A DNA stretch of 64,000 bases. Origin: Spirochaetales bacterium (lineage in GTDB: Bacteria; Spirochaetota; Spirochaetia; Treponematales; UBA12059). This document shows, one piece after another, positions 6,669-13,241 of the stretch. The notes beneath the pieces are model-generated. The model searched no databases, was not told the DNA's origin, and worked only from the letters and a program-made list of their open reading frames with translations. How positions within the stretch are numbered: position 1 is the stretch's first letter; every line of letters begins with the position of its first letter. The stretch lies in contig JAFGJV010000004.1 of the NCBI GenBank assembly GCA_016928955.1, positions 186,001-250,000 on the forward strand, read 5' to 3'. Both the position numbers and the translations under genes were made by a program.

Positions 6669-8360
6669 TTAGTCCCGCAGCTCACCACGGACTTTAGCTA
6701 TGCTCCACTCAAGCGCGTCCCTCAACACGGAAGCCCTGCCAGAACCACGCGTCTCCGCTTCCTTGCGGAACGCGGCTACGGAGGGCAGGATGGTTACCAG
6801 GGCCTCAAGGGCATCGGGTTCGAGCTCTGCCATGTATGAGCCGGCCTTGGCCGGCGTCTCGGGACCACGTAGCCGCGGGAGGCCCGTGAGGGCTTTCAGA
6901 TAGGATTTCATAAAATCGTCGGTGCCCATGAACAGCCTTCCGGAGGCAAACACCGCGCCCGGGGGGCCGGGAGGGACCTGCGTAGCTTTGTCTCCGTCCA
7001 GAGTGGAGGCCGCGCCTCCGCCGCGTCGTCTGGTAACGAACATGGCCAGGGATGACCCATAACGCTCAAAGCGCTCCAAATACACATCAAGCTGGCGGTT
7101 CCGGTAGCGGAATAAACCGTCCGGGTCGTTTTCCTTGCGTACGGTGCAGGACCTGAACATGAGCTCGACATGCATGCTCTCGAACGGGCCCAGGCGAGCC
7201 TGCCTGGCGTCAAAATACCGGTGTATGTAGGTACCCCTTGCGTAGCTCCTCCCGCCCGGATACGAATAGTCAGCACCGTAAACGGACACCTGCCTGGCCC
7301 CGAGCCTGGCTGCCAGGGACAGCGCCGCGTGGGTGACATTCCCGCCGGACGTGTCCAGGCTGGGGAAGGCCCTGAGCCTGGACGATATGTAGCCGGCAAA
7401 AGGATGGGCCGACGCAAAGAAGTACGGTCGCCGTGCCAGCCTGGCCAGGTTGGGCGGCGACGCCAGATCGAGGAACAGAGGAACGTCCTCAGGCAAGCCG
7501 TCCATGTAATGGTAGTAGCTGATGTGCTGGCAATCTATGGATATGACCGCGTCAGGTTTCACGCCTGAGCCCAAAAGGGCCGGAAGGCTTGTGTCCGTGG
7601 CAATAAGAAACTCGTCGCGCGAACGGCTTTTCAGGAGGGGCACGGCATCCTCTAGGCTCGGGCCGGCGCCCGTGACGATGGCTCTGCGAACAGGCGCCAC
7701 AGGCGGTGTCGCCAAGCATGCCTGCCGGATGTTCCTGACGATATTGGAAAACCATCGCTTGCCGAAATGCGCCTGTACCGAGTAGTCGTCGGATACGGAC
7801 GACAAGGCCCCCTTCAGGGCCACCGAAGCGCTGTGGAAGCGCTCGCTCTCCGCGTCAACACGGGATGAAAGGGGCACCACGGAAAAACCGCCGGCCACGG
7901 CAGGCACATACAGCTCGGCCACCGCCGCCGCAAGCTCGTCGTCCGCTGGATCGACCATGAGGCACAGGCGCCTGTCAGCCAGGAGCCTGGTCAGGTCCAG
8001 GCGCTCCAGGAGCGCCCTGAGGGTGGACGCCCTGTATTCAACGATGAGACCACGATTCAAAAGCCCGCTATCCAGGAGAGCCAGGGGCAGGAATCCGGCG
8101 CCCAAGCCCAGAAACACGTAAAATCCCCCGCCATCATAGGCGCGCGCAAGGCGCGTGGCTTCCCGTACAGGATCAAAGCGGGAATGCATGTGCGCCCTGC
8201 GCCCGGCCAGGTCAAGATAGGGTACTTGGCTACCGTCCCTGGCGCTCTCAAAACCCACCCTGGTATCTGGGCGAGCGGCTCTGATGCGCGAGGCGGTGGA
8301 TTCTGGGTGAAACGACGCTATGGCAAGCATATTGCGCTCGAACAAGGCCGGATCAGGCAT
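6669..8360 (-). CDS. DUF115/Maf-family protein (flagellin glycosylation type), downstream copy
   Basis: The protein (563 aa from this start) has the DUF115/MptE-like core: RRAIVTGAGPSLEDAVPLL, then DEFLIATDTSLPALLGSGVKPDAVISIDCQH, and later ARQVSVYGADYSYPGGRSY. In Campylobacter, Helicobacter and Aeromonas this family (motility accessory factors) attaches nonulosonic acids to flagellin. The substrate here is inferred. The ATG at 8360 overlaps the TGA of the upstream DUF115 gene, indicating translational coupling, and is preferred over an in-frame start 24 bases earlier inside that gene. It is the last gene of a four-gene minus-strand operon and is followed by palindromic repeat copy 1. Confidence 0.87.
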   Translation of the reverse strand: MPDPALFERNMLAIASFHPESTASRIRAARPDTRVGFESARDGSQVPYLDLAGRRAHMHSRFDPVREATRLARAYDGGGFYVFLGLGAGFLPLALLDSGLLNRGLIVEYRASTLRALLERLDLTRLLADRRLCLMVDPADDELAAAVAELYVPAVAGGFSVVPLSSRVDAESERFHSASVALKGALSSVSDDYSVQAHFGKRWFSNIVRNIRQACLATPPVAPVRRAIVTGAGPSLEDAVPLLKSRSRDEFLIATDTSLPALLGSGVKPDAVISIDCQHISYYHYMDGLPEDVPLFLDLASPPNLARLARRPYFFASAHPFAGYISSRLRAFPSLDTSGGNVTHAALSLAARLGARQVSVYGADYSYPGGRSYARGTYIHRYFDARQARLGPFESMHVELMFRSCTVRKENDPDGLFRYRNRQLDVYLERFERYGSSLAMFVTRRRGGGAASTLDGDKATQVPPGPPGAVFASGRLFMGTDDFMKSYLKALTGLPRLRGPETPAKAGSYMAELEPDALEALVTILPSVAAFRKEAETRGSGRASVLRDALEWSIAKVRGELRD

Positions 8361-9894
8361 GGTCTGCCTCCGCAAAGCTGGCACAGCCCCTGTCCACGGC
8401 GGCCAGGGCAGCCTGAATCCGTTCGGCGTCCGAACGCATCCTTGCCGCGTCCGCTATCACGGCGGCCGCGTCTCGTCCGGCCAGGGCCAGCAGGGCAAGC
8501 ACCTGGTCGGGATCCAGGTGGCGGGGTTCAGAGGCAAGGGCCGCGACCGAACTTTTCAGGCTTTGCGCTAGCTGCGCAAGGCCAACGGCAAAGCGCCTGG
8601 CGGGATCCGCGCTGGGATCCGGCGCGGGAATAAGCGCGGGCCGTTGGCTTTTTCCGTATGCGGAAAGAGCGGCGGCAAAAGCGTCCTGGGTAGCCGCAGT
8701 ACACCATGGCAGAGCTCCGGGCCTTCCCAGGGTAAAAAATCGCTTGACGTTGTTCCTTCTCAACCCAGAAGCATAGGCGTCAAAGGCTCTGGACAGCCTC
8801 CATGAGCAGCTGACCTGCGGATATCGCTCAAAAGCGCTGGTCACCATCTGCGACGTGCCGGGGTTGACGCGCGACGAGTATTCCCGGTCCACGTGGTCAA
8901 GGGCATAGGGGCGGGCATGGGCTAGGTAGGATCTGGCCGCGAGATCCAGGCCCGCTATAAACACAGGGCCTGAGCCAGCAGAGGCTGCTATGTCCAAGGC
9001 TGCCCCTGCAGCCGTACCCGAGCTTGGCGCCTTGAAGGCCCTGCTGCCCACGGCCATCGCGGCCAGTTCGTCAAAAGGCAGCGCGGTGTCCAGCGGAAGC
9101 AACATGCCCGCCCCGTCTAGTATGGACGCGGGTAGGAAGGAGCCTGGGGCGCAAGCCAGGGGCACCTTGCCATCCTGGGCCAGGCGCACGTGCAAGGCGT
9201 TCCACGGACCTGGATCGGTGGACACAAGAAGGTCTGGAATGACCCCGTGCTTGGACAAGGCGGCGTGCGCGGCGGCAAGGGCGACCACAAAGACATCCTG
9301 CCGCCTTTCCCTGAGCACGGGGAGAACCGGCTCAAGGCTAGGTCCTGCGCATGCTACTAGCGTCAGCCCCTGGCCAGGCTTGAGTTCGGCCAGGTTCCTG
9401 GGAGCGGCGGAAAAGCGCCAGGCGTTTCTCAGCCAGCGCCTGGCCCAATAGGCAGACGTGGCGGCGTTGGATGAAAGAAGCTCCAGGGCCGTTTCGGCTG
9501 CCGTACGGATACGGCCCGCCCAGCCGGGAAAGGCTCGCATGACCGGAGGCCATTCGAGTATCGCCACACCTCCCGCTGCCTTGCCGTCATACAGCTGAGC
9601 GTCAAAAAAGGCTAAAAGCTCCTGCCCTGAGCCCGGCGACCAGCAGGGATAGGGGAGCGCGGTCCAATGGCGGTCAAAACACGCGTCCGGCTGCACGGCA
9701 AGTATCCTGGTCCCGGGCAGGATGGAACTCAGGGCCGTTGCCAAAAACGGCATGCCGGGGCCAAGGAGTATCACAAGGGACGGGTGCTTGCCCTTGAGCT
9801 CGCGCACGGCAAAACGCTCGGCTTCCCTGCCCGGATCGTAACGCGAGTGGAACGTGTCTGTTCGCGGATCGGACGAGCTCGGGGAAGGGTTCAC
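8353..9894 (-). CDS. DUF115/Maf-family protein, upstream copy, 513 aa
   Basis: This is a paralogue of the next gene with the same core order: QGLTLVACAGPSLEPVLPVL, DVFVVALAAAHAALSKHGVIPDLLVSTD, and SGPVFIAGLDLAARSYLAHARPY. Overall it has diverged well beyond a recent duplication, so the pair probably has distinct targets or sugars. The start is GTG at 9894, giving MNPSPSSSDPRTDTFHSRYD; this GTG overlaps the TGA of the preceding gene in a GTGA arrangement. A longer frame exists but runs through the upstream gene. The N-terminal Rossmann-like part contains LVILLGPGMPFLATALSS. The role in flagellar glycosylation is inferred from the family. Confidence 0.85.
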   Translation of the reverse strand: MNPSPSSSDPRTDTFHSRYDPGREAERFAVRELKGKHPSLVILLGPGMPFLATALSSILPGTRILAVQPDACFDRHWTALPYPCWSPGSGQELLAFFDAQLYDGKAAGGVAILEWPPVMRAFPGWAGRIRTAAETALELLSSNAATSAYWARRWLRNAWRFSAAPRNLAELKPGQGLTLVACAGPSLEPVLPVLRERRQDVFVVALAAAHAALSKHGVIPDLLVSTDPGPWNALHVRLAQDGKVPLACAPGSFLPASILDGAGMLLPLDTALPFDELAAMAVGSRAFKAPSSGTAAGAALDIAASAGSGPVFIAGLDLAARSYLAHARPYALDHVDREYSSRVNPGTSQMVTSAFERYPQVSCSWRLSRAFDAYASGLRRNNVKRFFTLGRPGALPWCTAATQDAFAAALSAYGKSQRPALIPAPDPSADPARRFAVGLAQLAQSLKSSVAALASEPRHLDPDQVLALLALAGRDAAAVIADAARMRSDAERIQAALAAVDRGCASFAEADHA

Positions 9895-10870
9895 GGTTTC
9901 GACAGCATGTCCCGCAGTGCAGCCGCCGCGTCCGGGCTGGCCAGTTGGATGTTCATGAAGGAGACCAGGGCCGGCTGGGCCGCTTTTGGGGCTCCGAACA
10001 TCCGCATCATGGACGAGCTGAGCTGGACCCCGAGCAATTCCGGGTCGCACTGGCGCGGTGAGAAATTGACAGACAGGAGCCGTCGGGACGGAACCAGGCG
10101 AACCATGCCCGTATCGGAAAGCACCAGATTGGCAAAGCGGCCAGCGTCGGCGGCAATGGCCTGGGTAAGGGCATGGGGACATTCGGCCTGAACCCACGCG
10201 ATCAGGGCGCCAAGGTCCAGGATGCATACGGCAGCTTCCCGAGCGCAGCGCGCAGCCGGCTCACCGCGCAGCTCGGAAAAAAGGCTGTCGGCGCTGAGTG
10301 CGGGAGGCCGTGCTACGGTCAGCCGTCTGGCGCGCAATTCGGCGGCCTCGTCGGAGTGCGGGGCCACAACAGGGCCCTGGCTGACCGCTGGATAGCGCAC
10401 GAGCGCCGCAAGTCCGCCAAGGAGGGGCTCAATGGAACACGGGCCGCCACCGGGCAAGGGAAGCGATGCAGTGGCAGGCAAGCCCGAATCGAGATAGGGT
10501 TTAAGGACGCTCAGCTCGAGATCCGGCGGATAGGGTCGGGGTGCCCGGGGGCCAAAGGCAAGGGCGGGTTCATAGCGTTCGTGTGTCAGGAAGTACAAAA
10601 CGCCAAGTTCGTCCGACCCAGTTCTGGCCGCATGCTCGCCGACCTGAAAGGGGTACAGGTAGGCATTCCCCGCGCTTACAGCCGGGGGAACTGGTTTCTG
10701 TACGTCTTTGGATACTTGTTTGGAACTACGCCCAGGCGGAGCGGCTGCTGGGCGGCTTTCCCGAACCTGGTCTACGCGTACGCCGACCGGGACTTTTTTT
10801 TTTGACTCTGACCAAGCAGACCGCCGGGCTGGGCCGTTTTTGCCTCAGCCGCTTTATTCAATAAGCCCAT
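9891..10870 (-). CDS. Unknown protein whose reading frame needs a -1 shift at an A10 slippery run
   Basis: An ATG at 10870 overlaps the TGA of the upstream gene (TGATG) and opens a frame reading MGLLNKAAEAKTAQPGG, which reaches ten consecutive A bases (10803-10794) read CAA AAA AAA AAG. In the zero frame translation stops at TAG 10774-10772 after 32 residues. A -1 slip on A AAA AAG joins an open frame with no stop down to 9891, giving 326 residues. The region between run and first downstream start codon (TTG 10598) reads as protein (YPFQVGEHAARTGSDELGV). The product has a Pro/Ala-rich N-terminal part and an unrecognised C-terminal domain ending MRMFGAPKAAQPALVSFMN. Alternatives are a sequencing indel, phase variation, or a TTG start at 10598 with no shift. 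Confidence 0.68.
10794..10803 (-). other. A10 homopolymer forming an A AAA AAG slippery heptamer
   Basis: Ten A bases on the coding (minus) strand end in G. In the frame of the ATG at 10870 the last seven bases are phased A|AAA|AAG, the same heptamer and phase used for -1 frameshifting in E. coli dnaX. A short inverted repeat (GGTC and GACC around GCGTACGC) follows within about 25 bases and could act as a pause structure. Confidence 0.7.
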
Positions 10871-12981
10871 CAGAGCAACCCCAATTCCTCAAACAGCTTT
10901 TTATAGGTGTCGTAATACTCAGAGGACGCAAACTCCTCTATTTTCTCCTCAGGGAGCGATGCAAGAAGCTGGTCCAGGTACAAAAGAACGGATTTAATGT
11001 CCGTCTTTAGCTTGTCGGAAACCACGGGCTCAGGAGCAGACGAATCGTTGGCCGTGGGAGCCGGTGACGGTGCCATTGGTTCGGCGGACGGCATGCCAAA
11101 GGACGGCATGGCTATTGGAGGGGGCGACGACAATTCTATGGGACGCTCGGGCGCTTCTTCCGCTTCCACGAAGAAGGAGTCGTCCAGGCTCATGTTAATC
11201 TCGTCGGGATGCACCTCAACGGGCGTTGCCGGCTTAATGACGCTGCTGTCTATACGGTCGGCCAGGGACTCGCCGCTTTCCTGCTCATCGAGGGGAGAAA
11301 GATCCTCTATGCCGACTTCCTCGGTGTGCAGGTTCATGTCAAACGACACATCTTCGGGCGCCAGTTCCTCAAGCTCGGACGCCTCGAGCTCCTCAAGGGG
11401 AGCCTCTGCTAGGTCGGCGGGCGGAGACTCGGGCTCTTCGCCCTCTATGGAAAGCACCAGTTCGCCAAGATCGTCGTCGCCAGACTCATCCAGCACGAGT
11501 TCGTCGGCAGCTGGCTCCACCAAGGGAGGCTCTTCCAGGTCTTCCGTGTCCAGATAGCTGGTGTCCTCCTCCAGCGGGGTCATCGGGGTCACGTCAACGT
11601 CAGGAAGCTCGTGACTGTCGCTTTCCGCGGGGGTGGCGTCTATGCCGATGTGCTCGATATCCGACGGATGGGCTTCGTAGTCGCCGTCTTCCGGCAGGAT
11701 GGCAAGGTCGGCCTGTCGGTCCGGCGATCCTGCCTCCTCGGTGAAGTCGGCCGTGTTCAGGATATTGTCCAGCTCGTCGCCGGTCAGGGCTATGGTGTCG
11801 TCCTCTTCCTCGTCAAAGAAACCGCCTGACTGGGCCCCTGCCGACTTGGATTCATCCGACTCGGCGCCCTCGGCGGGACGGGAGGATTTCAGCGCTCCGA
11901 GCTGGCTGCGGAGGCTGGATAGCTCGTCTTTGATGGCAGCGAGCTCGGACGCGATGGTTTTGAGCATGTCCGACGCCGCGCCCCCTGAAGGGGATGCCAA
12001 ATCTGAGGTAACGGCCCCTACGTCGTCAAAGCCCACGTCCGAATCAAGGCGGATGCCTTCACGCTGCTCGAGGGAGGGGAGGACGCTGTCACCACCGCCC
12101 TGGTCCGAATCGATGAACGAATCCACGCTGATGCCTGACGGCATTGATTTGGTTTCCATGTCGTCAAAGGCGGCTGTCACGTCTTCCATGGACGAAGCGG
12201 GGCTGGGTATGCCCTCAAGGCCGCCCACGTCCTCGAACACGGGCTTGGATAGATCCTCAACGTCGTCTAGGGAAAACTCCACGCTGGAGTCGGCCGACGG
12301 TTCAGACGGCGCTGGTATGGTGTCGTCAAAATTCAGGTCTATGTCTATGGATTCGAACTCGTCGGCGGGCACCGGCTCGTCGTGGGTTTCCTCTTCCTCG
12401 GACATGCCGAACTCAGACAGGTCCACAGCTTCTGCCCCGGCGCTCGGGGTGGAAGGAGGCTCGGTTTCTTCAGGGGCCTCGTCCATAGAGAACCCAAAGT
12501 CCTCAAGGCTGACTTCCATGGCATCGGACGAGTCGGCCTCTGGCTCCCTGGCTTCAGGCTCTGGGCTACTCAGCCGCTCGGGCGGAGCTTCCGTCAGCTC
12601 GTCCAGGGGTATGTCTATGACAGAGTCTTCAATGACGCCCTCGTCGAGGTTGTCCTCAACGTCCATGATGGCCAGGTCGTCGTCCCCGCCCAGGGTCTGG
12701 ATGTCCAGAACATCGTCCCCGCCATGCTGAGCGGGCTGTTCGTCCTCCACACCCTCAGGAAGACCGAAATCGTCCAGGGACAGCTCGTCATCGGACGCAA
12801 AATCCATGTCCGCGGGAGGAACCAAAGACCCCTCCTCGGCCTCGGAGATGAGTTCGTGTTCGGTTTCCGGCTCCTCGATGACATCCTGAGGCTCCGCCTT
12901 GACCCAGACACCGTATTTTTCCAAATCCTGGTCCGAGGCAAGCTCAGGCACGTCGTGCCCACGCTGTTTCTTGGTCTGCAT
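10870..12981 (-). CDS. Highly acidic repeat-rich protein, 703 aa
   Basis: From ATG 12981 (MQTKKQRGHDVPELASDQD) the protein is dominated by Asp, Glu, Ser and Pro. It carries scattered short repeats of the type LDDFGLPEG, LEDFGFSMDE and LSEFGMSEEE. A short predicted coiled coil (MLKTIASELAAIKDELSSLRSQLG) lies mid-protein. The last 50 residues change character to a compact helical module (DIKSVLLYLDQLLASLPEEKI, then YYDTYKKLFEELGLL). No signal peptide or membrane segment is seen. It is probably an intrinsically disordered scaffold with a folded C-terminal interaction domain. It heads the operon that ends in the two DUF115 genes. A longer in-frame start exists, but its N-terminus has a different composition; GGAG lies 9-10 bases before 12981. 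Confidence 0.85.
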   Translation of the reverse strand: MQTKKQRGHDVPELASDQDLEKYGVWVKAEPQDVIEEPETEHELISEAEEGSLVPPADMDFASDDELSLDDFGLPEGVEDEQPAQHGGDDVLDIQTLGGDDDLAIMDVEDNLDEGVIEDSVIDIPLDELTEAPPERLSSPEPEAREPEADSSDAMEVSLEDFGFSMDEAPEETEPPSTPSAGAEAVDLSEFGMSEEEETHDEPVPADEFESIDIDLNFDDTIPAPSEPSADSSVEFSLDDVEDLSKPVFEDVGGLEGIPSPASSMEDVTAAFDDMETKSMPSGISVDSFIDSDQGGGDSVLPSLEQREGIRLDSDVGFDDVGAVTSDLASPSGGAASDMLKTIASELAAIKDELSSLRSQLGALKSSRPAEGAESDESKSAGAQSGGFFDEEEDDTIALTGDELDNILNTADFTEEAGSPDRQADLAILPEDGDYEAHPSDIEHIGIDATPAESDSHELPDVDVTPMTPLEEDTSYLDTEDLEEPPLVEPAADELVLDESGDDDLGELVLSIEGEEPESPPADLAEAPLEELEASELEELAPEDVSFDMNLHTEEVGIEDLSPLDEQESGESLADRIDSSVIKPATPVEVHPDEINMSLDDSFFVEAEEAPERPIELSSPPPIAMPSFGMPSAEPMAPSPAPTANDSSAPEPVVSDKLKTDIKSVLLYLDQLLASLPEEKIEEFASSEYYDTYKKLFEELGLL

Positions 12982-13241
12982 GGCGTAGCGCTCCGTCAAC
13001 GGGATGATTCTAGACCAAATATCGGCACAAAACCCGCTCAAGGGCACAGCAAAAAGCCCGTTGGGCTCCCTCCGCGCTCCTTGTTTCCAGGACCTGCCAC
13101 GGCGCGCGCATACGGGCGTGCCGGTGAATAAACGATCCTGACTCAACTCTACTAGCGCTCAAGTGCGTTGTCAACATCATGGTTTTGCTGATTGAAGATA
13201 GGCGTTCAAGGAGCGGCCCGGGCGAGCCGTTAATAGGAGGG

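Follow-up and report, generated by a model that had tools for sequence, protein, structure and literature searches.

A conserved run of ten adenines divides the reading frame of an operon gene in a spirochaete family and points to programmed slippage

In the 64 kb stretch of Spirochaetales DNA analysed here (the window), a gene that we call X is cut by a run of ten adenines (A10), and the locus raises the question of whether, and by what means, the two pieces of this gene yield one protein. The ATG of X (10870-10868) shares bases with the TGA of the upstream gene (TGATG), and its zero frame crosses the run as ...AGT CAA AAA AAA AAG TCC.... Adding one A to the run creates a single X frame of 326 residues that ends at TGA 9893-9891, and removing one A leaves a frame of 47 codons. 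Re-reading the frames (32 codons against 326 residues) reproduced the run, its phase and the equivalence of a -1 shift to one added nucleotide, as described in an earlier reading made from the letters of the window (the sequence-only reading). The zero frame contains a heptamer of the X XXY YYZ type, which is A AAA AAG in the window and A AAA AAC/T or A AAA AAA in other members of the family. In the window, which has a G+C content of 62%, this run is the sole A or T run of at least nine (0.16 matches expected). The 2.87 Mb genome holds ten runs of at least nine, two of which reach ten including that of X; the second A10 looks like part of a terminator, and the remaining A9/A10 runs are mostly terminator-like or intergenic. 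The features of the locus are collected in Table 1.

Table 1. Coordinates of gene X, its A10 run and neighbouring features in the window
Feature	Position	Strand	Description
A10 run, putative slippage site	10794..10803	-	codon phase xAA AAA AAA AAG
Zero-frame short ORF of X	10772..10870	-	32 codons, MGLLNKAAEAK...QKKKSRSAYA; stop TAG 10774-10772
X body, shifted frame	9891..10799	-	302 codons; predicted GAF-like and degenerate GGDEF-like fold
Upstream acidic protein	10870..12981	-	703 aa from ATG 12981 (start assumed); conserved C-terminus ...LPEEKIEEFASSEYYDTYKKLFEELGLL
DUF115/MptE-like gene 1	8353..9894	-	GTG start overlaps X TGA (GTGA)
DUF115/MptE-like gene 2	6669..8384	-	PF01973; weak PseD match
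Sigma-70-like promoter candidate, TTGACA-17-TAGAGT	13146..13174	-	consensus match only; count equal to shuffle mean

X is the second gene of an operon, lying between the gene for an acidic protein and two DUF115/MptE-like genes. Both of the latter match PF01973 (E 9e-15 and 4e-28), in agreement with the sequence-only reading, and a match to the PseD model beside X (E 1e-8) falls far below the cut-off of that model. The same reading had labelled the operon as one for flagellar glycosylation, which fits the MptE-like/DUF115 domains; these domains and the weak PseD match are its whole basis, and they suggest rather than establish the label. The first DUF115 gene starts with a GTG that shares bases with the stop codon TGA of X, so its translation is probably coupled to that of X, and in twelve other family loci examined the next start lies between -17 and +30 relative to the X stop. 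The upstream protein is very acidic, and its C-terminus is strongly conserved across the order, being present in 352 of 394 genomes; searches of Pfam and NCBIfam found no family for it.

Using the X sequence of the window by itself to scan GTDB genomes gave no match, because X is too divergent. Relatives were located through the conserved C-terminus of the acidic protein, and the sequence downstream of it was then read. All 20 members of the window's family with a readable site, drawn from about ten genera, carry A9 or A10 at the same place, which answers the call of the sequence-only reading for run lengths in related genomes. In 17 of them the run is A10 in the same phase (xAA AAA AAA AAN), starting and ending at codon position 2; here the zero frame ends after 28-51 codons, and the long frame is opened only by one added A, the equivalent of a -1 shift by the ribosome. 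In two draft MAGs (G017 and G020) the run is A9, which would require -1 or +2, and in one genome (G006) an A10 that starts at codon position 3 leaves the frame open as it stands. Each ∼3 Mb genome contains 1-5 A10 runs, and two genomes have no other than that of X. G004 contains two co-assembled strain variants (L220 and L230) with 98% identity across 496 nt; each has A10, and a cluster of substitutions lies directly after the run in this pair.

The X proteins of different genera share only about 10-35% identity; conservation of the run thus exceeds that of the protein, and the KKK that it encodes is nearly the sole invariant feature among X bodies. Between congeners, where dS is near 1, the X body has a dN/dS of about 0.2-0.4 in the shifted frame, and neither of the other frames is constrained. 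Because low dN/dS is confined to the shifted frame, the X body is translated there and is under selection. The recurrence of run and phase in the family, together with this purifying selection, bears out the proposal of a programmed shift in the sequence-only reading, and these comparisons make it very probable that X is recoded in one way or another.

Alignment of the joined frame with homologues, which had also been suggested, was informative outside the family. Across the four remaining families of the order, this MGLL..KA N-terminus and a body are usually parts of a single uninterrupted ORF that has no such run, and in some members X is absent from the locus. By this comparison, the fused form of the gene is ancestral. 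Other A-runs were observed in X outside the family. In Brucepastera parasyntrophica RmG11 (L109/L207), X has A9, and one added A opens a frame of 128 codons; the site may have arisen independently as a slippage site, or the complete genome may contain a sequencing error here. One MAG (L174) has A10 in another phase and needs +1, a more distant MAG (L161) has A11 in frame, and L190 has an A10/A11-type run near the start of X, in another phase or in frame. Judged from these three loci, the start region of X seems to gain A-runs repeatedly.

The AlphaFold model of X (pLDDT 81) shows disorder following the run and two domains, one GAF-like and one GGDEF-like. Its best matches in the PDB are diguanylate cyclases, with PelD among the weaker ones, all at low TM-scores. 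A GG(D/E)EF motif is absent from X by inspection, leaving the fold only, and searches of Pfam and NCBIfam with X returned no family. PelD-like proteins with a GAF and a degenerate GGDEF domain have the same predicted order of folds, but X lacks the GGDEF motif and the membrane part, and the structural matches are weak. Together with the DUF115/MptE-like neighbours, this model makes it plausible that X senses nucleotides and regulates flagellin modification or motility.

We favour, as the likely explanation, that X is made by programmed slippage at the conserved A10, mainly by RNA polymerase and possibly with help from -1 shifting of the ribosome. In this mechanism, polymerase would realign on A10 and insert an A in what would be a minority of transcripts. 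Normal translation of the A11 (or A8) mRNA would then join the MGLL..KA...KKK segment to the body to give the ∼326-aa X, and the unslipped mRNA would give a short peptide ending shortly past the run. The same protein would come from a -1 slip of the ribosome at this tract, which may play a part as well. With the DUF115 start overlapping the X stop or lying close beside it, translation of the DUF115 genes should likewise be set and limited by the slip rate, probably through coupling or through polarity after the early stop of the ribosome, by analogy with known systems. A main role for polymerase is suggested by the retention of ten adenines, though seven suffice for the ribosomal heptamer. It is also suggested by the mixed direction of the required shift, +1 in 17 orthologues and -1 or +2 in the two with A9, since an inconstant direction among orthologues is a published criterion for transcriptional realignment (PMC3711429); this argument is thin because both A9 genomes, the only two, are draft MAGs. 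Counterpoints to the polymerase reading are the phase and the 3′ G (A AAA AAG), which suit the ribosome, the enrichment of hairpins downstream and the in-frame gene of G006.

Several known systems resemble this arrangement. In Shigella flexneri spa13 and mxiE (PMC5009743), as we propose for X, transcriptional slippage fuses the main body with a short ORF 5′ of it, and the extension has an end that overlaps the following gene or affects it; the slip rate in spa13 is reported to affect downstream spa32 (PMC5009743). These genes are unrelated to X and lie on a virulence plasmid, whereas X is chromosomal and kept across a spirochaete family. In Citrobacter rodentium tssM1 (A11) and Yersinia tssM3, an A added to a poly-A run yields the full-length protein at 15-25% (PMC4256274). 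The Citrobacter tssM A11 slips at 20-25%, and efficiencies of comparable tracts are 15-30%, up to 55% (PMC4256274). The tssM cases are sporadic and their truncated form exceeds 800 aa, in contrast to X, where the run is family-wide and the leader peptide is about 28-51 aa.

Slippage in dnaX (A9 in Thermus, and A10 types; PMC3711429) likewise uses an A9/A10 run, and in a survey nine dnaX genes with A10 were ascribed to transcriptional realignment (PMC3711429). The same geometry occurs in dnaX within the order: in ten genomes, Treponema-like ones included, dnaX has A10 in the phase xAA AAA AAA AAN with a +1 stop 4-5 codons later (L238, L239, L241, L243, L245, L247 and L251 in the window's family; L244, L249 and L252 in other families). 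In the window's own dnaX (L250), adenine runs stay below seven. In the dnaX of the order the unshifted product is the long one, whereas in X the shift makes the long one, and X is not a replicase gene.

The strongest alternative is programmed -1 frameshifting by the ribosome on A AAA AAG or A AAA AAA, as in E. coli dnaX, with the length of the run incidental or accessory. Its phase is correct in 17 of the 18 A10 family members, and a G follows the run in most. Hairpins downstream of the run are enriched, with z < -2 in 6 of 18 members compared with 5% of controls, and a mean z of -1.36 against -0.27 in control windows. Two loci (L041 and L046) have an AGGAGG- or GGAGG-like site (at least five matching bases) before the run. 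Such sites are mostly absent elsewhere, however, and many members lack a hairpin; in the window, the hairpin is unremarkable (z about 0) and no Shine-Dalgarno-like stimulator lies upstream of the run. Moreover, seven adenines would be enough, yet ten are kept, and a ribosomal -1 shift cannot rescue the A9 members G017 and G020. The likeness to E. coli dnaX holds for the heptamer A AAA AAG and its phase, and the 'dnaX-type' shift of the sequence-only reading is less well supported as the main mechanism, given the three extra adenines, the mostly absent stimulators and the two A9 genomes. Frameshifting by the ribosome as the principal process is rather unlikely. Somewhat less doubtful, and held only tentatively, is the idea that A10 is a composite site where polymerase and ribosomal -1 slippage give the same product. 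In this chromosomal, non-mobile gene, such a site, kept throughout the family, may act as a fixed-ratio attenuator that sets the dose of X as a GAF/GGDEF-like regulator and of the coupled flagellin-modification genes, a device reused from the dnaX of the order.

About a third of members (L040, L041, L045, L049, L050 and L051) have unusually stable RNA hairpins directly 3′ of the run, which could be frameshift stimulators or one half of an antisense terminator. A terminator-like hairpin upstream of the run is absent (mean z -0.35). We also considered an antisense terminator, formed by a hairpin beside the run on the other strand; a strong adjacent hairpin occurs only in L045 and L049, so this does not explain the conservation of the run.

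Phase variation, in which replication slippage alters run length and turns X and the coupled DUF115 genes ON or OFF, had been raised in the sequence-only reading. Poly-A tracts are mutable, and glycosylation and Maf genes of Campylobacter are phase-variable (PMC8355987, PMC6321876); G006 is in frame at A10, as is the distant L161 at A11. The run length is nearly invariant, however, and the OFF state is found in 19 of the 20 family members, of which 17 share one phase. Under free drift in length about a third should be in frame, and at most one ON in 20 at a probability of 1/3 has P of about 0.003, ignoring shared ancestry. The co-assembled strain variants also have runs of equal length. ON/OFF switching thus fits poorly and is improbable as an account of the locus, and low-level changes in run length may occur below the consensus.

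It is still less credible that the locus encodes two separate proteins, a short peptide and a body that is initiated internally or by re-initiation. The body frame of the window does contain TTG 10598, and L050 and L213 have a start codon beside the zero-frame stop. The sequence-only reading had named homologues that begin at the TTG 10598 position as evidence against a shift; the family has no conserved start in the body frame, where the first start lies 2-101 codons downstream. Initiation at codon 65, the first such start in the window, would truncate the GAF-like domain within its first strand, the outgroups usually carry both parts as one ORF, and A10 would be left without an explanation. 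Finally, the dull alternative of an assembly or base-call error, with X simply open, has a negligible chance of being right: homopolymers are error-prone and the relatives are mostly MAGs, but for the family as a whole it is refuted because separate sequencing projects recovered the run with the same length and phase in about ten genera.

Bacteria offer few documented cases of conserved programmed slippage other than those in mobile elements and dnaX. Among 108 genomes surveyed, the one non-mobile candidate whose A9 was conserved was mapW (PMC1088944), and our search of the literature on slippage in spirochaetes returned nothing on the X gene. X belongs to a cellular operon that is probably linked to motility, and its run has persisted across about ten genera with saturating change at synonymous sites. 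The X ORF is liable to be mis-annotated as a pseudogene or as truncated in many spirochaete genomes. The natural series of A9, A10, in-frame A10 and no run bears on why exactly ten adenines are kept. Together with slippage led by polymerase, the reading that we prefer, the A10 at X appears to be a built-in limit on the output of X.
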